In this document: positions 38,255-46,383 of the stretch, piece after piece | Numbering within the stretch: the first letter of the stretch is position 1 | How the letters are laid out: the number at the start of each line of letters is the position of its first letter | Virus record (IMG/VR): IMGVR_UViG_3300042542_004384 | Location: 1 to 46,618 of that record | Origin: a virus | Length of the DNA: 46,618 nucleotides | Strand: one strand, 5' to 3' | The notes under the pieces: model-generated | Told to the model about the DNA's origin: nothing | Seen by the model: the letters and a program-made list of their open reading frames with translations, nothing else | Databases searched by the model: none | Translations under genes and position numbers: made by a program

Positions 38255-39163
38255 TTACTCATCAGCCAATTTACTGAAGTAAGCGAGATCATCTTCATCA
38301 GCGTCATCGGCTACTGCCGCAACAGCAGACTTTGATGCTTCCTTCTTCTTCAGAACTGGATCAGCCTTCATTTGCTCGACAGTAGTGCGAGCGCGAGGCT
38401 CAGAACCATCAAGACCAAGAACACGATTCATCTTGGTTTCAAGTTCTTCATAAGTCTTGAAGTTGCTACGATCCATGAACTGAGCAAGAGAATGCTCCTT
38501 CTTCCAGATAGATTCAAGAGTATCATCATCAAAGCCACCAAGAGTGCCAGCCTTATCGAACTCTGAACGATCATAGTTGCGATAGCCCTCGACGTTACGA
38601 ATCTTCAACTTGAAGTTTGCACCAGACCAAAGATCGAATGGGTTCACTGGCGTTTCATCCGCGAATTGCGGGTTCATTGCTTCCTTGATCTTCTCGAAAA
38701 TCTTCTTACCGAACTTAAACAGAAACACCTTACCTTCGTTCTGAGGATTCTTAGAATCCTCAACAACGTAGATATTCGCAATGTACGTCAGGCGACGCTT
38801 TTGCTTACGTGCAATGTCCTTGTTTGCTTCGATGCCAGAATTCCAGAGCTTCGAGTTATACTCAGAGACTGGATCCTTTTCACCAAGAGTAGTGAGAGAG
38901 TTTTCGATGTACCAACCGCCAGAACCTTGAAAGCCATGATCCCAGAGTTTAACCCAAGGAAGACCAGAAGAATCACCTTCTGCATCAACTGCGGGAGACG
39001 GGAGGAAGCGAATTACTGCATATCCGTTGCCAGACTTATCAACTTCAGGCTTCCAGAAGTTGTCTTCTTTTGAAGAAGAAGAATTGTCTGAGAGAGTTTC
39101 GATAGCCTTTGCAAGCTTTTCGAGATTACCGGATTGCTTTTTGAGAGATGCGAAATTAGACAT
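38255..39163 (-). CDS. 32: Single-stranded DNA-binding protein gp32
   Basis: A 302-aa protein, about the length of T4 gp32 (301). The N-terminus MSNFASLKKQSGNLEKLAKA carries the basic self-association LAST-like region; the OB core has DNFWKPEVDKSGNGYAVIRF and WVKLWDHGFQGSGGWYIENS; then KKRRLTYIANIYVVED-like (KQKRRLTYIANIYVVEDSKN) and FKFGKKIFEKIKEAMNPQF, all conserved. The C-terminus is acidic (DDADEDDLAYFSKLADE), which binds gp59 and other partners. The four zinc ligands of T4 gp32 are not kept: where T4 has SCPVCQY this protein has KDPVSEY, as in cyanophage homologues. Its ribosome site is AAGG. Codon composition looks richer in G+C than neighbours, as expected for an abundant protein. Confidence 0.97.
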   Translation of the reverse strand: MSNFASLKKQSGNLEKLAKAIETLSDNSSSSKEDNFWKPEVDKSGNGYAVIRFLPSPAVDAEGDSSGLPWVKLWDHGFQGSGGWYIENSLTTLGEKDPVSEYNSKLWNSGIEANKDIARKQKRRLTYIANIYVVEDSKNPQNEGKVFLFKFGKKIFEKIKEAMNPQFADETPVNPFDLWSGANFKLKIRNVEGYRNYDRSEFDKAGTLGGFDDDTLESIWKKEHSLAQFMDRSNFKTYEELETKMNRVLGLDGSEPRARTTVEQMKADPVLKKKEASKSAVAAVADDADEDDLAYFSKLADE

Positions 39164-39245: not shown

Positions 39246-39743
39246 TTATACGTAAAGTGAGAGAATTGCAATAGTGGAAACGGCATTCTTGTGTAGAACA
39301 CCAATACCACCTGCTTTATCCCAATCATTGATTACAGAGAGTGTGTCATCAATGATAATGGAATTCGGTGTAGCAAACTTTGCCTTATGTCGTTTACCTG
39401 GAACAAAGTTCTGCTTAAAGTCAATATTGTGTTTCTTCAGCCACTCACTTTTTTGTTCTGAGATAGCATCATGATGTTCTTCTCTTGCAGTAGAAGAGAG
39501 AATCTCTTTAGGAATATGTTTTAGCGTATTCAGATAAGTAAGAAGCAGAGATGCGTCAGACATGGGATCTAGATCCGCAAAGCCACGCTTTTCAATCAAT
39601 TCTTTGAAATTCTCACTGAAATTCTTCCTCGAATCACCACTGTCAGGTGCAGATCCAAACATTTCAATGTATTTCTTGTTGAAGTTTGCAATCACACCAT
39701 CCATGTCAACGTAGATTTTTTCTATACCGATTGAGTTTGACAT
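39246..39743 (-). CDS. HAD-family 5'(3')-deoxyribonucleotidase
   Basis: A 165-aa protein of the NT5C-type HAD phosphatases. Motif I is YVD13MD15GVIANF, with the nucleophile and the acid/base Asp; motif II is the Ser/Thr in LSSTAREE; a Lys-rich segment (GKRHKAKF) supplies motif III; motif IV is IIID132D133TLSVINDW, which holds Mg. Such enzymes remove phosphate from dNMPs and are common near replication genes in aquatic T4-like phages, where they help reshape the nucleotide pool. Its start lies inside the end of gp59 (22-base overlap). Confidence 0.88.
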   Translation of the reverse strand: MSNSIGIEKIYVDMDGVIANFNKKYIEMFGSAPDSGDSRKNFSENFKELIEKRGFADLDPMSDASLLLTYLNTLKHIPKEILSSTAREEHHDAISEQKSEWLKKHNIDFKQNFVPGKRHKAKFATPNSIIIDDTLSVINDWDKAGGIGVLHKNAVSTIAILSLYV

Positions 39744-40336
39744 ACGTTTTCTTTCAAAATAGTTTTAAATTTCAATTGATCATAGTTCAGAAATGGCGAA
39801 TACTTTTCACATTTCCTCACAAATTGCGGGAAGATTATATCATCATTTATTTTCTTCAACCACATCGGCATGAAGTTCATAAAACTATTCATGATGATGA
39901 TCGTTTCAATTTCAATCTTCTCTTGTAGATGATAAGTGTACAACAAAGGGTAGTCACCGTCAACCACGCGAAGAAGTTCTTCTGGATTCTCCACGGTATC
40001 GAATAGGAAGTTCAAATTCTCTTTGAATGTATATGCAAGAGATTGTTGCTTCTTCAGCCACTTTTTATATCTTTCATCAGCTTCTTCAGTGAGTAGATCA
40101 AAGATCCAAATCTTTGGATCATGCAAGAAATTAGAGATATAAAACTCTAGTAGTTCTTCTTTCTTGTACTTCCGCGAAAGCCTATAGAAACTATACTTAT
40201 CTTTTCTCCGTGAGAATTGTTCCTTAGATACTTTGGTTTTGCCATGATATTTGATGAAGTCATAAGTGCCACCGAAATGAAACTTTAACCCTTGATACAT
40301 TGCAAATGCGTCAAAACCACCAAGTTCAGTGTTCAT
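39722..40336 (-). CDS. 59: Helicase loader gp59
   Basis: A 204-aa protein matching T4 gp59 (217 aa) along its length: GGFDAFAMYQGLKFHFGGTY, DFIKYHGKTKVSKEQFSRRK, DKYSFYRLSRKYKKEELLEF, YISNFLHDPKIWIFDLL, and further KENLNFLFDTVENPEELLRV and YHLQEKIEIETIIIMNSFMN (T4: KRRDKYFFQKLSEKYKLKEL, ISNLVANQDAWIGDI and IISFETFILLDSFLNI). gp59 binds forked DNA and gp32 and loads the gp41 helicase. It lies between gp33 and the nucleotidase, one base from the gp33 stop, and in the same operon as gp32, its partner. Confidence 0.93.
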   Translation of the reverse strand: MNTELGGFDAFAMYQGLKFHFGGTYDFIKYHGKTKVSKEQFSRRKDKYSFYRLSRKYKKEELLEFYISNFLHDPKIWIFDLLTEEADERYKKWLKKQQSLAYTFKENLNFLFDTVENPEELLRVVDGDYPLLYTYHLQEKIEIETIIIMNSFMNFMPMWLKKINDDIIFPQFVRKCEKYSPFLNYDQLKFKTILKENVCQTQSV

Positions 40337-40337
40337 C

Positions 40338-40559
40338 TTAGATTGGAAGTTTGTTGACCTTCTTAATTAGGTTTGCACTTTGAGCTTCTTCTGAAATCTT
40401 TGCTTTAACTGGCGCTGAAAGCAAAGACGCTGCAAGTTCCATTTCAAAACCAGTTTCTTCACAATGCCAAACAATTGCATCGATATAAGACAACTTCTTT
40501 GACGCGACAATATTCTCAATTAGACTTGAGAAATTCTTGATTTCATCTTTCGTCGGCAT
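40338..40559 (-). CDS. 33: Late transcription co-activator gp33
   Basis: A 73-aa protein starting MPTKDEIKNFSSLIENIVAS, with KKLSYIDAIVWHCEETGFEM, ELAASLLSAPVKAKISEEAQ and the end LIKKVNKLPI. This is the pattern of gp33 in aquatic T4-like phages, which links the sliding clamp gp45 and the beta flap of host RNA polymerase to activate late promoters; the short hydrophobic C-terminus is the clamp-binding end. T4 gp33 is longer (112 aa). The start is ATG at 40559, which shares its A with the stop of the preceding gene (TAATG); an extension of 11 residues upstream would lie inside that gene. Its presence supports the TATAAATA motifs in this window. Confidence 0.85.
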   Translation of the reverse strand: MPTKDEIKNFSSLIENIVASKKLSYIDAIVWHCEETGFEMELAASLLSAPVKAKISEEAQSANLIKKVNKLPI

Positions 40560-40789
40560 TACTTCATACCCCTCAGAGCGTAGGTAATGCAAGTCGCAGA
40601 AGAATACTGATCATAAGTACACTTCACAGAGATTGGATCAACACCCTTTGCAAGTGCAGATTCAATGTTTTTCGACATATTGTTTTGCTGATTTAGATTA
40701 TATGCACTCACTGATGCAACAAGTGCAATAAGAAAAATCGTAATACAAACGATAAAAGTAATCATTTCCTTGTTGATTTTAGATTCCAT
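40559..40789 (-). CDS. Small single-span membrane protein (76 aa), holin candidate
   Basis: A 76-aa protein. Residues about 9-29 (MITFIVCITIFLIALVASVS) form one hydrophobic membrane span preceded by a short charged N-terminus, giving a probable N-in topology. The C-terminal part is soluble and has two cysteines (CTYDQYSSATC) that could form a disulfide in the periplasm. It lies 2 bases after the endolysin stop and is TAATG-coupled to gp33. A holin or other lysis helper is possible because of the endolysin neighbour and because T4 holin T is also a single-span N-in protein, but this is speculative. Confidence 0.75.
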   Translation of the reverse strand: MESKINKEMITFIVCITIFLIALVASVSAYNLNQQNNMSKNIESALAKGVDPISVKCTYDQYSSATCITYALRGMK

Positions 40790-40791
40790 GT

Positions 40792-41343
40792 TTACTTCCT
40801 TTCAAAATTTGAAACATCACTATGACTTCTGTAAAAGATATGACGACCAATCTTGCTCACTCTCTGAAGAGCCCAACCGGGATTTACATAATCAGCATGA
40901 TAAAACGTAGATCCTTTCGTCACATCATGCTTGACACTGTAGTTCAAGAAGACTTCTGTCGCCAACTCTAAGATTTGATTGTACTCTTCTGTCTTACGAA
41001 TTGTCAAGCGTTGTTTTAGGTGTTTTTCCATACAATACCACGAGAACTGGCACACGCCGTTCACTTTCTGATGAACGACACCGCAGATTGTATTCGCATA
41101 GTTCTTAGATAAGAGTCTATTCATCGTAACGTGTGCTACTGCTTTTTGCCCTTTCACTGGTTCGTTAACGGATTCGAAATAGATGTTATCCGCTAGACAA
41201 GTCACTTGCCTCTTCGATTCTGGTGATAAGAAAGAATAAGACGCTTTGAGTGGAATTTTTTTATCGATTGAATTATAGCCAATTGTTCCAAGGAACATTA
41301 AAGAACTTACACATAATGTAATGAGTATAGGTTTACTTTTCAT
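40792..41343 (-). CDS. SleB-type cell-wall hydrolase (endolysin)
   Basis: A 183-aa protein. Residues 5-22 (PILITLCVSSLMFLGTIG) form an N-terminal hydrophobic segment, a signal or signal-anchor. The rest is the Hydrolase_2/SleB fold: C49LADNIYFE57S with the candidate catalytic Glu57, then EPVKGQKAVAHVTMNRLLSK, CGVVHQKVNGVCQFSWYC, and STFYHADYVNPGWALQR with KIGRHIFYR at the end. Such enzymes cleave peptidoglycan as glycosidases and serve as endolysins in many aquatic myophages. GGAG stands 9 bases before the ATG at 41343. It lies just after the tmRNA terminator. Confidence 0.88.
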   Translation of the reverse strand: MKSKPILITLCVSSLMFLGTIGYNSIDKKIPLKASYSFLSPESKRQVTCLADNIYFESVNEPVKGQKAVAHVTMNRLLSKNYANTICGVVHQKVNGVCQFSWYCMEKHLKQRLTIRKTEEYNQILELATEVFLNYSVKHDVTKGSTFYHADYVNPGWALQRVSKIGRHIFYRSHSDVSNFERK

Positions 41344-41356
41344 AAATTTTTACTCC

Positions 41357-41398
41357 AAAAGAAAATGCCGATTGTTTCTGTTTCCAAGTACAATCGGC
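41357..41398 (-). terminator. Terminator-like hairpin at the 3' end of the tmRNA coding piece
   Basis: GCCGATTGT (41398-41390) and ACAATCGGC (41375-41367) form a perfect 9-bp stem with a 14-base loop, followed by ATTTTCTTTT. It could end the tmRNA transcript before the endolysin or form the last helix of the coding piece. Confidence 0.7.
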
Positions 41399-41557
41399 GA
41401 AAACTCATGCCGCAGGTTTAGGCTGCAGCTAGGAAACGCTCTTCGTTTGCGTTTATTGGCTTGCTTCTTCGACTGGGTTGCCCCAATCCTAACGGGTTTC
41501 ACATTCCCGTGCTGTCCATTTCGTTACTCTTTGCCCCGTCGAAACCTGGTCAGGCCC
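41399..41557 (-). ncRNA. ssrA: tmRNA coding piece (5' acceptor strand, D-loop region, tag ORF)
   Basis: On the minus strand the piece begins GGGCCTG (41557-41551), the 5' acceptor strand, followed by GGTTTCGACGGGG, the conserved D-loop-like signature of tmRNA. A stable hairpin GATTGGG-GCAA-CCCAGTC follows (41488-41471), in the place of a tmRNA pseudoknot/stem, and then the tag frame 41450-41418. The acceptor strand pairs with CAGGTCC of the acceptor piece through seven pairs with a G-U at the third, which is the alanine identity element. The 3' end is not fixed; it lies between the tag stop and the following hairpin (41398-41367). Confidence 0.88.
41418..41450 (-). CDS. tmRNA proteolysis tag reading frame
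   Basis: Ten codons from GCA at 41450 to GCC at 41421, then TAA at 41420-41418. They encode ANEERFLAAA; with the alanine from the tmRNA itself the tag is AANEERFLAAA. Ala-rich hydrophobic ends such as LAA direct tagged proteins to ClpXP. The codons are preceded by AATAAAC. The tag resembles proteobacterial tags (the beta-type ANDERFALAA that I recall) more than the longer cyanobacterial form. Confidence 0.85.
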   Translation of the reverse strand, partial: ANEERFLAAA

Positions 41558-41619
41558 ATCATAAAAACACAATACCAAAGTAAATTTACACGGAATACCA
41601 AAGTAAATTTATGCTCTTA
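41558..41619 (-). other. Intervening spacer between the two tmRNA pieces
   Basis: Sixty-two bases lie between the encoded CCA of the acceptor piece and the GGG of the coding piece. They would be removed from the precursor to leave a two-piece RNA. The spacer carries two copies of an 18-base direct repeat. Confidence 0.75.
41571..41611. repeat. 18-base direct repeat in the tmRNA spacer
   Basis: aataccaaagtaaattta occurs at 41571-41588 and again at 41594-41611, separated by 5 bases (cacgg); the period is 23. Confidence 0.95.
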
Positions 41620-41680
41620 TGGTGGACCTGGGCGGAATCGAACCGCCGTCCGGAACACTTTTCTCTCTACTTCATACAGC
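41620..41680 (-). ncRNA. ssrA: tmRNA acceptor piece (T-arm and CCA end)
   Basis: On the minus strand, GGCGG-TTCGATT-CCGCC (41647-41631) is a perfect 5-bp T-stem with a T-loop, followed by CAGGTCC (41630-41624), discriminator A (41623) and encoded CCA (41622-41620). No complementary GGACCTG occurs just upstream where a tRNA 5' end would be; the partner is found downstream at 41557-41551, which shows a circular permutation. TTCCGGAC just before the T-stem resembles the TTTCGGAC found there in E. coli tmRNA. The 5' end is uncertain and may reach the stop of the upstream gene at 41689. Confidence 0.88.
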
Positions 41681-41688
41681 AATATTTT

Positions 41689-42381
41689 TTATGTTAAACT
41701 TCCGGCTACCCTACCTGCTACGGAAGCTACACGCTCCGCACCTGATTTAACCGCACCTTTTACTTTATTTTTAATGTTAGAAACACCCGTATCAATTTTT
41801 CTCTTTAATTCTGTACGTTTTTGTAATCCTTGAATATGTTTCGATTGTGCAGCTTTTGAAGCGGTATATGCAGATGATGCTTTATCGAAAGCAACATTTC
41901 TGCGTTTTTCCAATGATGCAGCTTTAGCTCTTTTAAAAGTTCCAGATAATCCTGTTGCGTTCTTTGCGTCTTTTTTTGCGGATCTCATTTTATTATACAA
42001 TTTTTCATGTGCTTTTAGTGTTGATGCAGCAGCACCGGCAGCACGTTTTGCACGGTATTTGTTAATTAAGTTTCTAATACCATGAACTGCACCGGATACA
42101 GCACCGCCTAATGATTCATCTAGTGCCAAATCAATAAATTCTTCATATAATTCTAGATTTGGATCTTCAGCACCCGTTAATGAGAGAATTGCGGATTCTT
42201 TTAAAGAAAGAAAAATATAGTTTTCAACAAAATGTTCCATCATAAGAGAAGCTAAATAGGCTTCTTCTTCTGAAATTTCATAATTTTCATCCACTTCATT
42301 ATATAGCTCTTGAGCCATAATTTCGATGAATTCAAAAAATAGACCCTCTCTTTGATTTTTTTGTTCTTCTGTTAGATACAT
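41689..42381 (-). CDS. Acidic-basic Ala/Lys-rich protein of unknown function (230 aa)
   Basis: A 230-aa protein with a strong charge split. Residues 1-90 are acidic and helical (FIEIMAQELYNEVDENYEIS, EEEAYLASLMMEHFVENYIF); from about 105 on it is Lys/Arg/Ala-rich (KYRAKRAAGAAASTLKAHEK, AKAASLEKRRNVAFDKASSA) and ends VASVAGRVAGSLT. The ATG at 42381 has AGGAG 7 bases before it. A nucleic-acid-binding or internal head/scaffold role would fit the basic part, but no family is recognised. It lies directly upstream of the tmRNA acceptor piece, so both are probably co-transcribed. Confidence 0.7.
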   Translation of the reverse strand: MYLTEEQKNQREGLFFEFIEIMAQELYNEVDENYEISEEEAYLASLMMEHFVENYIFLSLKESAILSLTGAEDPNLELYEEFIDLALDESLGGAVSGAVHGIRNLINKYRAKRAAGAAASTLKAHEKLYNKMRSAKKDAKNATGLSGTFKRAKAASLEKRRNVAFDKASSAYTASKAAQSKHIQGLQKRTELKRKIDTGVSNIKNKVKGAVKSGAERVASVAGRVAGSLT

Positions 42382-42395
42382 TTTGTTTCTCCTTT

Positions 42396-42710
42396 TTATT
42401 TATTTGAATTGTGAGAAAAACTACCTGACCCGGATGCAATTATACATGCAAGATTGCTCTTTGTCAAGAACAGTCCGATCGTGTATTCCTCATTGTCCTT
42501 ATTGTGTGTCATGAAAGAGAGTACGCCTTCTTTCGCATGGAGTGTGTCAATGCCGGCGAATACAATCTTCTCTTTTAGCTCTTTTGTTAAGAGATTCAAC
42601 ACAACATCTCTCTCAAAACAATTCACAGTGAATGTGACTTTGGTTTCTTTACTTTGTGCAGAAACTAAAGTAGAAAATGCAATTAGTACTGCACAGAGTA
42701 TAGTTTTCAT
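42396..42710 (-). CDS. Exported protein of unknown function (104 aa)
   Basis: A 104-aa protein whose first 19 residues, MKTILCAVLIAFSTLVSAQS, form a typical signal peptide with an A-x-A-like cleavage site (V-S-A). The mature part is mainly beta (KVTFTVNCFERDVVLNLLTK) with two cysteines. The ATG at 42710 follows the TAA of the cupin gene after one base; a longer reading frame would start inside that gene. It may act in the host periplasm during infection. No family recognised. Confidence 0.7.
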   Translation of the reverse strand: MKTILCAVLIAFSTLVSAQSKETKVTFTVNCFERDVVLNLLTKELKEKIVFAGIDTLHAKEGVLSFMTHNKDNEEYTIGLFLTKSNLACIIASGSGSFSHNSNK

Positions 42711-42711
42711 T

Positions 42712-42990
42712 TTATGTTCCCGTAGAAAATACATTTACGAATATTGTGTTATCTTCCAATGCTTCTACCTCATGCCATTCATTATCCACAAGATTCAATG
42801 GAACTGAGTTTTTGTTGATGATCTTTTCACCCTTTTCTTTACGTACAACACAGCTTCCAGAATGACACATCGTCAGATGATTAAAATTGTGTTCATGTCT
42901 CGGTAAACCTTCACCCGCATTTGCATGGTAAATATTTAATGTAGTGCCAGAAAATTCTACTGAATTTTTCGGCGTTATGAGTTTTACCAT
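42712..42990 (-). CDS. Small cupin-fold protein (92 aa)
   Basis: A 92-aa protein with the cupin pattern: GEGLPRH32EH34NFNH38LTMCHSG, a short loop, then VPLNLVDNEWH73EVEALED and FVNVFS. His32, His34, His38 and His73 could bind a metal. It is TAATG-coupled to the gene at 42990-43283 and follows the glycine-rich adhesin genes. Small cupins of this type are frequent in T4-like phages of aquatic bacteria; substrate and role are unknown. Confidence 0.75.
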   Translation of the reverse strand: MVKLITPKNSVEFSGTTLNIYHANAGEGLPRHEHNFNHLTMCHSGSCVVRKEKGEKIINKNSVPLNLVDNEWHEVEALEDNTIFVNVFSTGT

Positions 42991-43283
42991 TAGAATGTTT
43001 CGGTTCCGGTTGTAGTATTATTTTGAGAAACTGGCATAGGTTGATTTGTAATAAGATATGTTCCGTCCCACTCCCATCCGATACCACCTTGGCCAATTGA
43101 GTCTACTAAAATCCAAGTGTTAGAATTAGTCTTTTCCCAAATTTTAGTAGGTGTATCATTTTGTGGTAGTGCAATGTGATTTGTCGGAGGATTCCATTTA
43201 TCGGTATCACCATCCCATAAAACGATATTATCACAGTAATTTGGCTCAGACTGTGTATCAATTATGACGTAATTTTGTAACAT
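42990..43283 (-). CDS. Adhesin-associated small protein of unknown function (97 aa)
   Basis: A 97-aa protein, MLQNYVIIDTQSEPNYCDNI, then VLWDGDTDKWNPPTNHIALP, rich in Trp, Asn and Asp. The ATG at 43283 has AGGAA upstream and lies 10 bases after the stop of the glycine-rich protein. A longer frame up to 43577 is a shadow of that protein. A fibre cap, tail-fibre-assembly or tip protein is possible from position. The C-terminal end is Thr-rich (NNTTTGTETF). No family is recognised. Confidence 0.7.
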   Translation of the reverse strand: MLQNYVIIDTQSEPNYCDNIVLWDGDTDKWNPPTNHIALPQNDTPTKIWEKTNSNTWILVDSIGQGGIGWEWDGTYLITNQPMPVSQNNTTTGTETF

Positions 43284-43293
43284 TTTATTTCCT

Positions 43294-43974
43294 TTACCAT
43301 TCGATAAGTACAAGACCCGCGGCACCAGCACCACCGTTGTTGCCGGTATTGCGGGTTGGGTGTCCAGAGCCTCCTCCACCATAATTACCACCTGCGACCG
43401 ATGCACCGCCCGTGGTTGGAATAGCCAAAGAACTAAGTGAAGAATTCCCACCAGTGCCACCAATAGCCGAACCCAGGCCGAGATATGTACCACTCGAACC
43501 ACCAAAAGTAAGATCCGCTCCGGAAGAAGTTGATGAACCGGAACCTGGAGCGCCGCCTGCTGTAGCAGCGCCACCACCGTTCGCTGAAATAGTTGTTATA
43601 GATTGCGTACCGGATGCAACACTTGATTGCCCACCTGCGGTTGCTGCAGAAGCCAGAGAACCAAGCCCTCCGCTGCCGCCGGCACCTATAGTTACTGACA
43701 ATGTGCCAGCTGGGGTTAAACCAGTTAACCATTTAATCGCTGTACAACCGGCACCACCTCCAGGTCCGATAACAGTTACGCAGCAGCCGCTAGCGGTGGC
43801 GGCGGCGCCACCACCGCCGCCACCAACCACAGTAACTTTGATTTTAGTTACACCTGTAGGTATAGTAAATGTACCAGAAGAAGTAAAGGCTTGTGCAGAC
43901 CCACCGATAAATGCTGTGTTCTGTTGGCTACTATCGTTGAATAATACACCTGTATTATTAAGTGTTGCTGGCAT
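43294..43974 (-). CDS. Glycine-rich adhesin / tail-fibre tip protein
   Basis: A 226-aa protein. A short N-terminal hook (MPATLNNTGVLFNDSSQQNT) is followed by FTSSGTFTIPTGVTKIKVTV, VGGGGGG, and a long series of Gly-rich segments (GPGGGAGCTAI, GAGGSGGLGS, GGNYGGGGSGH) and ends GAAGLVLIEW. This layout is typical of phage receptor-binding tips made of polyglycine-type repeats, functionally like T4-group gp38 adhesins. Such proteins vary quickly at their loops and decide host range. The gene lies away from the main fibre operon, between a nuclease gene and two small genes, with a GGGAG signal. Confidence 0.85.
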   Translation of the reverse strand: MPATLNNTGVLFNDSSQQNTAFIGGSAQAFTSSGTFTIPTGVTKIKVTVVGGGGGGAAATASGCCVTVIGPGGGAGCTAIKWLTGLTPAGTLSVTIGAGGSGGLGSLASAATAGGQSSVASGTQSITTISANGGGAATAGGAPGSGSSTSSGADLTFGGSSGTYLGLGSAIGGTGGNSSLSSLAIPTTGGASVAGGNYGGGGSGHPTRNTGNNGGAGAAGLVLIEW

Positions 43975-43978
43975 TGTG

Positions 43979-44650
43979 TTAATTCTCCCGTACTGTTGTC
44001 CTGTAGTATTTGATGTATTCTGCCAATGTATTTATATGATCTTCAGTTTTCTCAATAAAAACTAGCGGTTCATCATTTTCAACAGCCATGACTGTGACAA
44101 GTTGATCAATGTTTTTACCGACTAATTCGTCATACATGAGTGCATAAGCACATTCTTGTGCAAAGTAATCAAAAATATCATCTCTCTTCTTCACTTTCTT
44201 TGAAGTCTTGAAATCAATTACAGAGAGTACACCGTCCCACTCTGCAATTAAGTCCACGCGACCTGCCATGCCGATCTTTTCAGACCAAAGAGAACATTCT
44301 TGATAATGAATATTATTAATCTTACTCATCAGCGGCTTCAGCGAATTGAACATTTCAATTGCATCTGGCATTTCTTTTTGCCACATGATCTTTTCATTGT
44401 TCAAGTATTTTTCCGCTAGAGAGTGTACGCGAGTACCACGACCGGAGGCCATTTTCGAAATACGATTAGCCTCAGCTTCGCCGACACGCGCACGCCACTC
44501 CATAATCGCCTGCTTCTTCATTGCACCGATAACAGTGGTGACAGACGGTAAACGCACACCACTTGGCGTGGTGTAGTAACGCTTACCGTCGTCGCCTGTT
44601 ACTGAGACTAGATCAGGTAATACCTTCGGCGGGCAATGAATAAATGTCAT
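43979..44650 (-). CDS. MGME1/PD-(D/E)xK-type exonuclease
   Basis: A 223-aa protein from ATG at 44650 (MTFIHCPPKVLPDL). It has SGVRLPSVTTVIGAMKKQAI, a basic stretch with RGTRVHSLAEKYL, then the nuclease core MAGRVD133LIAEW and VIDFK148TSKK (D146-x-K148), and the following Q165ECAYALMY helix of RecB-like nucleases. This is the pattern of the mitochondrial-genome-maintenance exonuclease type that is common in T4-like phages, likely in DNA recombination or repair. The start overlaps the preceding gene by 38 bases. A longer frame to 44722 is probably not used. Confidence 0.82.
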   Translation of the reverse strand: MTFIHCPPKVLPDLVSVTGDDGKRYYTTPSGVRLPSVTTVIGAMKKQAIMEWRARVGEAEANRISKMASGRGTRVHSLAEKYLNNEKIMWQKEMPDAIEMFNSLKPLMSKINNIHYQECSLWSEKIGMAGRVDLIAEWDGVLSVIDFKTSKKVKKRDDIFDYFAQECAYALMYDELVGKNIDQLVTVMAVENDEPLVFIEKTEDHINTLAEYIKYYRTTVREN

Positions 44651-44891
44651 CGTATAGTTCTTTCTGTTTAAAACGCTTTTCTTGTATGGTTTCTTGTTTC
44701 CAGATTTTTCTGGGATTGCCACACATTATACAACGTGGCGTGTGACAATTCAATGCGTGGTGTTTAAAGAACCGATGTGGTTGTTTTTCTACAATTCCCG
44801 CAGCTTTTGCAATTTTCGCTTGCTTTTTTACTGCAATTTGTTTCGAGTGAATGCGTTTACTGTGTTTGATTTTAAACTCTTCGCTACTCAT
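44613..44891 (-). CDS. Cys-rich conserved phage protein (92 aa)
   Basis: A 92-aa basic protein (MSSEEFKIKHSKRIHSKQIA). The core HALNCHTPRCIMCGNPRKIW, followed by QETIQEKRFKQ, with CxxxxxCxxC cysteines, is a small zinc-type motif I recall from conserved hypothetical proteins of T4-like phages. Its start overlaps the stop of the homing endonuclease by 8 bases, and its end overlaps the nuclease start by 38 bases. Function unknown; DNA or RNA binding is possible. Confidence 0.7.
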   Translation of the reverse strand: MSSEEFKIKHSKRIHSKQIAVKKQAKIAKAAGIVEKQPHRFFKHHALNCHTPRCIMCGNPRKIWKQETIQEKRFKQKELYDDIYSLPAEGIT

Positions 44892-45549
44892 TATGCATCT
44901 CCGATTTAAACTTACATTTTTCCCCGTGATATCTTTTATAGTTTCCGTTGTCTATAATTTTACCACAATGTTCGCAATTTTTCTTCGGTTTGGATTTTCC
45001 TTTATTTGGATGAACATAGTTTGGATCTGTTAATGTTTTCATTAGAGAATCATGATGTTTTTTATTATGTTCTTTAGTATGTTTTCTTCCTTTAAGCGCC
45101 TCACTTACTAATTGTTTTTGTTTTTCGCTCTGTTTTTTCCCATACATTCCGCATCTTTTTTGAATGTGCAATTGTTTAACAGTAGAACTTATTAAATCTG
45201 ATCTACGTAAAGCAGATTCTGATATTTTCTTGCATACTTTTTCATATAGAGGATGTAAAGGATCAAGAACAATATTACCACCTTGACCTCCATATGCAAT
45301 ATTATAATATTCATCACTTTCGATAATAGAATTATCGATCAATTCTTTTTCTTTGTTGTCCATATCTTCTTTGTTATCAAAGACATAAAGTATTTCTCTT
45401 TTGAATTTATCTTTACCATACTTTTTTATAGCTTTTGCCAATATTTTACCAGATCCAAGATATAAATCATTCGCATCTGTTGTAATATGTTTTCCTATAT
45501 ATTTTTTATTGTTTACTAAACATGTAGTGACATATATTGTATAGTACAT
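44884..45549 (-). CDS. GIY-YIG homing endonuclease (free-standing, Seg-like)
   Basis: A 221-aa protein. The N-terminus YTIYVTTCLVNNKKYIGKHI holds the two strands of the GIY-YIG nuclease motif, followed by YLGSGKILAKAIKKYGKDKF, KREILYVFDNKEDMD and the conserved Glu in NKEKELI. Residues about 135-170 (CGMYGKKQSEKQKQLVSEAL, KGRKHTKEHNKKHHDSLMKT) resemble the NUMOD3 DNA-binding helices, and the end (CEHCGKIIDNGNYKRYHGEK) is a zinc-finger-like element. Such free-standing enzymes cut neighbouring DNA of related phages and spread by repair. It stands between phoH and the 92-aa gene, overlapping the latter. Its ribosome-binding site AGGAGG (45560-45555) is 5 bases from the ATG and lies in a strong hairpin. 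Confidence 0.92.
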   Translation of the reverse strand: MYYTIYVTTCLVNNKKYIGKHITTDANDLYLGSGKILAKAIKKYGKDKFKREILYVFDNKEDMDNKEKELIDNSIIESDEYYNIAYGGQGGNIVLDPLHPLYEKVCKKISESALRRSDLISSTVKQLHIQKRCGMYGKKQSEKQKQLVSEALKGRKHTKEHNKKHHDSLMKTLTDPNYVHPNKGKSKPKKNCEHCGKIIDNGNYKRYHGEKCKFKSEMHNE

Positions 45550-45609: not shown

Positions 45610-46383
45610 TTAGTCGGATGATGAATTATCATCTTCATAACGCATTGTAGCAGAAATCCAATCACGCACTAAACTGGATCTCACAATATCATTAACAGTA
45701 AACTCTATTCTGGAGTGTGAATTCATAAGCTTAGAAATTTCTAAAAACTTTATGAGACCCGATACATCATTCTTTTTCTTGTTTAAATCAGTTTGACGAT
45801 AGTCGCCGCACCAAATAATTTTGGATCGATAACCGACACGGGTCATTACGGTGTTTATTTCTTCCCACGTCATATTTTGGCATTCATCAACAATGATAAT
45901 TGCATCATCGAATGACATACCGCGGATGAAAGACGTTGAAATGAATTCAATAAAGCCCTGTTCCTCTAGTCGAGTATATGCGTCTGGACGACCAAACAAT
46001 GTGTGGCAAATTTGCTGATAGGGTTGTCTGTAGATTTCCGTCTTTTCATCTAGGTCACCGGGTAAGTGCCCGACTTCTCGCGACGGAACTGCCGATCTAA
46101 CAATAATTATCTTGTTAAACGGATTTGATTTGTCTAATACTTCTTCAAGTGCTTTGTAAAGTGCTATAAATGTTTTACCTGTTCCTGCTACACCGTGAAG
46201 TGCAACAAAGTAATCACCTCTTCGATATGCGTCGTAGAATTTCTTTTGATTTTCTGTTAGAGGTTGAAATGTTTTTAAATGATCCAGCTTTAGTTTGAGA
46301 CAATTTGATGTATTACCACTTGCTCTGTAGTCTTCAATTTCAATGATATCGTCTCTTTTTACATTTGATTTGCGACTGGCCAT
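45610..46383 (-). CDS. phoH: PhoH-like ATPase
   Basis: A 257-aa P-loop ATPase. Walker A is GVAGTGKT (64-71), Walker B AIIIVDECQN (161-170), with KIIIVRSAVPSREVGHLPGD between them and KIIWCGDYRQTDL as a sensor region, all typical of PhoH. The N-terminal LKTFQPLTENQKKFYDAYRR block is also conserved. PhoH is very common in marine and freshwater T4-like phages; its function is unsettled (RNA helicase or nuclease related). AGGAG is 6 bases before the ATG. The homing endonuclease follows after the hairpin. Confidence 0.93.
   Translation of the reverse strand: MASRKSNVKRDDIIEIEDYRASGNTSNCLKLKLDHLKTFQPLTENQKKFYDAYRRGDYFVALHGVAGTGKTFIALYKALEEVLDKSNPFNKIIIVRSAVPSREVGHLPGDLDEKTEIYRQPYQQICHTLFGRPDAYTRLEEQGFIEFISTSFIRGMSFDDAIIIVDECQNMTWEEINTVMTRVGYRSKIIWCGDYRQTDLNKKKNDVSGLIKFLEISKLMNSHSRIEFTVNDIVRSSLVRDWISATMRYEDDNSSSD

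Follow-up and report, generated by a model that had tools for sequence, protein, structure and literature searches.

Two-piece tmRNA (ssrA) genes are known from phages. One was published for the OM43 phage Melnitz in work that suggested a two-piece form for 53 of 133 unique phage tmRNA structures (PMC9004378), and 79 unique phage tmRNA sequences are listed in PMC11915505. Two scans of viral contigs by us each gave at least 120 stretches with permuted tmRNA patterns. Melnitz (a Methylophilales phage, MZ577097) and the Pelagibacter phage Mosig (MT647606) are cultured T4-like Kyanoviridae, and in both the two-piece gene follows a PD-(D/E)XK exonuclease and precedes gp33, gp59 and gp32: the order is PhoH, exonuclease, two ORFs, ssrA, gp33, gp59, gp32 in Melnitz and exonuclease, ORF, ssrA, gp33, gp59, gp32, with other genes between, in Mosig. 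Both RNAs match alpha_tmRNA (RF01849; 106.7 and 67.6 bits, respectively), and a glutamine riboswitch lies beside the Melnitz gene. Permuted tmRNAs over the cut-off of RF01850 occur in cultured phages, namely the Stenotrophomonas phages Marzo (L519, 94.6 bits) and DLP6 (L524, 103.7 bits) and the Alcaligenes phage QDWS595 (L523, 93.8 bits), where they adjoin tRNA genes and, according to ARAGORN, encode the tags VAANDDSYTVRIAA, ANDDSFAPMAIAA and ANDNVYAAAA. The hosts of these three phages belong, to our knowledge, to groups not known for permuted ssrA. The records of DLP6 and QDWS595 do not annotate the tmRNA. The two-piece ssrA genes of betaproteobacterial hosts (Rhodocyclaceae and others) are of the RF01850 type and encode ANDERFALAA and its kin. 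One-piece phage tmRNAs, such as that of Cellulophaga phage Calle_1 (RF00023, 86.6 bits), are phage-borne too but have the standard unpermuted order.

The DNA analysed here (the window) is an IMG/VR record of 46,618 bases, a fragment of a T4-like aquatic phage, and its minus strand carries a complete circularly permuted (two-piece) tmRNA gene at 41681-41367. An earlier note, made from the letters of the window, had proposed such a phage-encoded gene and a search with the Rfam tmRNA covariance models as a check; the search was positive. Over the whole window, RF04321 (tmRNA_permuted) scored 121.1 bits (E 3e-23, match 41681-41418 minus, gathering cut-off 47) and RF01850 (beta_tmRNA) 99.7 bits (E 2.9e-29, gathering cut-off 84), the latter being the clan match kept after the program had dropped lower-scoring overlapping matches of the same clan. 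ARAGORN called a tmRNA* (permuted) on the minus strand with the tag ANEERFLAAA. The earlier note had named the alphaproteobacterial, cyanobacterial and betaproteobacterial groups without choosing between them; with beta_tmRNA as the best-scoring subtype model of the clan, the gene is of the betaproteobacterial subtype.

Read along the minus strand from 41690 to 41360, the blocks are distal P2, P2, T arm, acceptor 3' strand, A, CCA, spacer, GGGCCTG, GGTTTCGACGGGG, two short hairpins, tag, stop hairpin, terminal hairpin and T-rich stretch (Table 1), so that the acceptor 3' end with CCA comes first and the spacer, the 5' end and the tag follow. All elements that had been noticed, from the T arm, CAGGTCC, A and CCA across the 62-base gap to GGGCCTG, the D-loop signature and the tag frame with its stop, were located in the sequence, and the proposed span of 41367-41689 fits, as the last stem stops at 41367 and the upstream ORF at 41689. 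Between GGGCCTG and CAGGTCC all seven base pairs can form, including, in third place, the G-U of alanine tRNAs, and the tRNA-Ala-like domain further contains A73, CCA, a T arm and a reduced D arm. The tag frame has an alanine resume codon, a hydrophobic C-terminus ending in Ala-Ala and a stop, its end being LAAA as against ALAA. The precursor has a folding z of -4.24. This pattern is far beyond chance. RF04321 and RF00023 do give weak matches on nonpermuted genes and tRNAs, which would suit a tRNA-like sequence misread as a tmRNA, but the window scores 2.5 times the RF04321 cut-off, and the explicit order of CCA end and then 5' end, the tag and stop in place and the covarying helices speak against an artefact, whose chance we regard as negligible.

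Table 1. Positions of the parts of the tmRNA gene and of neighbouring protein genes in the window.
Feature	Position	Strand	Basis
Acceptor (3') piece of mature tmRNA: distal P2 strand, P2 strand, T arm, acceptor 3' strand, A73, CCA	41620..41681	-	RF04321 match, ARAGORN; precision of the 5' end limited by that of the model
Distal P2 strand GCTGT, pairs with ACAGC 41515-41511	41676..41680	-	Helix 1, two-sided changes in 4/5 pairs
P2 strand of acceptor piece, TGTTCCG	between distal P2 and T arm	-	Sequence reading
T stem and loop GGCGG-TTCGATT-CCGCC	41647-41631	-	Sequence reading
Acceptor stem 3' strand CAGGTCC	41624..41630	-	Helix 4, 100% of cells paired
A73	41623	-	Sequence reading
Encoded CCA	41622-41620	-	Sequence reading
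Spacer (62 bases) with predicted excision; ends pair TAAGAGCAT / GTGTTTTTA	41558..41619	-	Helix 5, 94.5% paired, 7/9 pairs with two-sided changes
Acceptor stem 5' strand GGGCCTG, start of coding piece; predicted RNase P site directly before	41551..41557	-	Sequence, ARAGORN, helix count
D-loop signature and P2 strand GGTTTCGACGGGG	41534..41546	-	P2 is helix 2, 98.8% paired
Short PK1-type stem CGGG / CCCG	41493..41509	-	Helix 6, 100% paired
Additional hairpin GATTGGG-GCAA-CCCAGTC	41471..41488	-	Helix 7, 100% paired, A-U to G-C exchange in 11/23
Tag reading frame ANEERFLAAA, resume codon GCA	41421..41450	-	ARAGORN
Tag stop codon TAA, within loop of hairpin GCTGCAG/CTGCGGC (41429-41409)	41418..41420	-	Sequence, alignment pairing 55.7%
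Terminal hairpin GCCGATTGT...ACAATCGGC, loop ACTTGGAAACAGAA, then ATTTTCTTTT	41367..41398	-	Helix 9, two-sided changes in 7/8 pairs
230-aa ORF directly upstream of tmRNA, no family	41689..42381	-	Family search
SleB-type cell wall hydrolase, first gene downstream of tmRNA	40792..41343	-	phrog_938 endolysin, cell wall hydrolase relatives
gp33-type late promoter transcription regulator	40338..40592	-	phrog_254
gp59-type DNA helicase loader	39722..40336	-	phrog_269
gp32-type single-strand DNA binding protein	38255..39163	-	phrog_224
Exonuclease upstream of tmRNA	43979..44722	-	phrog_298
PhoH-like protein	45610..46383	-	phrog_170

The additional hairpin is common to one class of phage relatives and is missing in many others and in the host genes read. 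T-rich sequence directly follows the terminal hairpin. Within the spacer, 18 bases (TAAATTTACTTTGGTATT) are directly duplicated, which none of the aligned relatives shows. Two plus-strand ORFs (41619-41750 and 41321-41833) are antisense to the tmRNA and almost surely spurious (e.g., MVDLGGIEPPSGT...); peptides of the GGIEPP kind typically arise where an ORF runs antisense to a tRNA-like T arm.

Nine helices defined in the window were scored in an alignment of 23 phage relatives of the same structural class. Standard pairs filled 91.6% of the cells and two-sided changes were found in 36 of 57 pairs, the control with the partner slid by 1 to 3 columns giving 40-47% paired. The acceptor stem, T stem, PK1-type stem and additional hairpin were paired in every cell. 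The stop-codon hairpin pairs poorly (55.7%), with register shifts between sequences visible by eye. As the stem formed by the spacer ends is paired in 94.5% of cells, selection appears to act on the fold of the precursor as well, and the conservation of this stem is consistent with two-piece processing. Among 281 viral permuted genes, full acceptor pairing was present in 279 and pair 3-70 was G-U in 280, a count to which a bias of ARAGORN towards alanine-type stems may contribute. Because the search pattern included CCACCA, A73-CCA is not independent evidence.

The carrier is T4-like by its gp32, gp33, gp59, baseplate wedge and tube-cap families, all on the same contig, which also encodes tail fibres, PhoH and an exonuclease. 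The nearest cultured records to its gp32 are from marine cyanophages, and its gp59 has matches in cyanophages and in Melnitz. Positions 39892-44378 of the window recur with 100% identity in a second IMG/VR contig, of 4,487 bases. ARAGORN found no tRNA genes in the window. The tmRNA is flanked by the 230-aa ORF ending at 41689 and the SleB hydrolase starting at 41343, within the conserved order PhoH, exonuclease, tmRNA, SleB, gp33, gp59, gp32. A homing endonuclease (phrog_314) lies near this locus, at 44884-45549 between PhoH and the exonuclease. The T4 late promoter TATAAATA had no match beside the tmRNA gene and showed no excess across the window. A perfect sigma-70 consensus, TTGACA-N17-TATAAT, is located at 42467-42439 (-), upstream of the 230-aa ORF and the tmRNA and reading towards both; with up to one mismatch allowed, about one such site is expected by chance.

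The locus is conserved among relatives. When contigs were picked by the SleB protein alone and not by RNA, a permuted tmRNA was present upstream of SleB, always in the same orientation, in 45 of the 57 loci with enough upstream sequence. It was not found in the other 12, suggesting that it is dispensable in some relatives or located elsewhere. Across three contig sets, the first two of which were found by RNA patterns, the exonuclease was upstream of the tmRNA in 45/45, 35/35 and 35/35 loci where it was detected and gp33 downstream in 41/43, 35/35 and 33/33. T4-type neighbours were present in 53 of 114 and 44 of 117 RNA-pattern contigs among the matches listed, that is, in about half or fewer, which indicates that permuted tmRNAs occur in other phage contexts as well.

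The shared place of the gene leads us to read the window as the locus corresponding to that of Melnitz and Mosig, carrying an RNA of the beta and not the alpha type. Unlike in these two phages, the SleB gene stands between tmRNA and gp33, and no glutamine riboswitch was seen in the Rfam search of the window. The tmRNAs of Marzo, DLP6 and QDWS595 are of the same type as ours but differ in tag and lie away from the gp33 locus. Betaproteobacterial host ssrA shares architecture and subtype with the window, whereas the window has the extra covarying hairpin, the tag ANEERFLAAA and a position in an all-virus clade. The tmRNA of the window is real, but it belongs to an already described phage gene type that is common in aquatic phages; the earlier note had called a phage-borne gene of this kind unusual, and given the published Melnitz gene, the proportion of phage structures suggested to be two-piece and the yield of our scans, it is less so than claimed. 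Seen beside the genes of Melnitz, Mosig and the Stenotrophomonas phages in culture, that of the window is in itself unsurprising. What our analysis adds to the type is the all-virus clade, the lack of SmpB and SspB matches in related viral records and the FLAAA end of the tag.

With the window tmRNA as query, blastn against 50,697 phage records gave no match at E 1e-5 and only partial matches at E 10; the relative L118, used as query, did find cultured phages. In a tree of 133 tmRNAs, the window tmRNA falls inside an all-virus clade of 42 rows (support 98/100). The larger set of 90 rows around this clade (support 97/97) also contains two or three clades of host beta-type genes; one-piece betaproteobacterial genes and alphaproteobacterial genes fall outside it. 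The all-virus clade makes the gene look like a long-standing phage gene and not a recent host capture. A passenger, either a recently captured host ssrA or a decayed copy as left by prophages integrating at ssrA, would accord with ssrA being a common integration site (PMC11915505; PMC9004378), but all parts of the gene are intact and covary, it sits in that clade and in a conserved T4-like gene block, and its identity is ~70% to the nearest sampled host compared with 84% to the nearest other phage; we judge a passenger very improbable. The data instead indicate that a rearranged ribosome-rescue RNA is a stable gene of a T4-like phage lineage and not a stray host copy.

The tree was better aligned than our first, and it weakened the strong nesting of hosts in phages that the first had given. 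Neither constraint was rejected by AU tests, host monophyly giving p 0.106 and virus monophyly p 0.361, and either direction of transfer between phages and betaproteobacteria is thus compatible with the data. Because host genes lie within the wider phage spread in both trees, phages might be a long-term reservoir of beta-type permuted tmRNA from which betaproteobacteria got their two-piece ssrA, possibly more than once, a scenario that we put forward as speculative and on the whole unlikely. Phage spread of permuted ssrA to bacteria and the need of a phage for its own tmRNA in lytic infection become testable questions. In one GTDB family, that of G073, 10 of 101 genomes have permuted ssrA (L440, L442, L509-L516), with the tags ANDESYALAA, ANDENFALAA and ANDDKFALAA and in a clade separate from the Rhodocyclaceae type; this patchiness suggests repeated gain or conversion. 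Genome assembly G174 (G174:C54:52542-52752, G174:C15:26157-26525) contains a permuted tmRNA alongside a one-piece one (230 bits), perhaps owing to phage sequence or a contaminant.

Among 18 related viral records, of which six exceed 90 kb and three 160 kb, none matched SmpB (PF01668), and among 18 related viral records with eight above 160 kb none matched SspB (PF04386); the records may be fragments. The host would then supply both proteins, and on the simplest view the phage RNA works with the SmpB of its host. We consider it likely that the two-piece tmRNA (ssrA) gene of this T4-like phage is functional, has been passed down in a phage lineage and rescues stalled ribosomes via host cofactors. 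Drawing on established knowledge of two-piece tmRNAs (work cited in PMC9004378 and PMC11915505), we picture the gene as transcribed into a precursor that would fold with the acceptor stem stacked on the spacer stem; host RNase P and tRNA 3'-end processing would cut out the 62-base spacer, leaving the coding and acceptor pieces joined by the acceptor stem and P2. The host alanyl-tRNA synthetase would charge this RNA via G3-U70, and host SmpB would bring it to ribosomes that have stalled because their mRNA is broken or lacks a stop codon. Such ribosomes should be frequent, as a lytic phage degrades host nucleic acids. ANEERFLAAA would be added, the ribosome freed at TAA and the tagged protein passed to host proteases. 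The benefit to the phage would most likely lie in ribosomes kept available during infection, the simplest benefit given the many broken mRNAs expected in lytic infection, and degradation of the tagged proteins would be secondary.

ANEERFLAAA is close to the betaproteobacterial tag ANDERFALAA, the Leu being displaced by one position, and its FLAAA end is unusual compared with the usual FALAA. Of 266 viral rows, 10 have FL-form ends, copies making up several of these, compared with 0 of 162 host rows, a host control that is small and partly biased; the other phage tags of this form are ANEESFLMAA, ANDERFLMAA, ANDEQFLMAA and ANDSRFLMVA. Only the smaller host sample is unbiased for tag ends, the larger having been picked with a pattern demanding Ala after the Phe codon. 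As ClpX of E. coli depends critically on the terminal LAA and degrades variants at a different rate (PMC9382460), altered proteolysis through the FLAAA end is possible. The phage tmRNA could even act as a competitor or reprogrammer that outcompetes host tmRNA and, by a phage-chosen tag, alters the fate of tagged proteins, e.g., if proteases recognise the tag less well or differently, or if host proteins are disposed of preferentially. The shifted Leu, the viral FL ends and their ClpX context would suit this role, as would the selective tagging of host proteins that Buchholz et al. proposed as an alternative benefit for Melnitz (PMC9004378). Most viral tags, however, retain LAA, VAA, IAA or MAA ends, as expected if ordinary proteolysis is kept, and the larger host sample was by its pattern blind to FL ends; we hold reprogramming to be quite unlikely and prefer ribosome rescue via host cofactors. 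Long ARAGORN tags recur in several viral contigs (loci such as L013, L031, L045 and L092; ANADTFDFSAMSFTGNTV...ALAA, ANASTFEYFTVEGF...VAA) and may be either true long tags or the product of misplaced resume codons.
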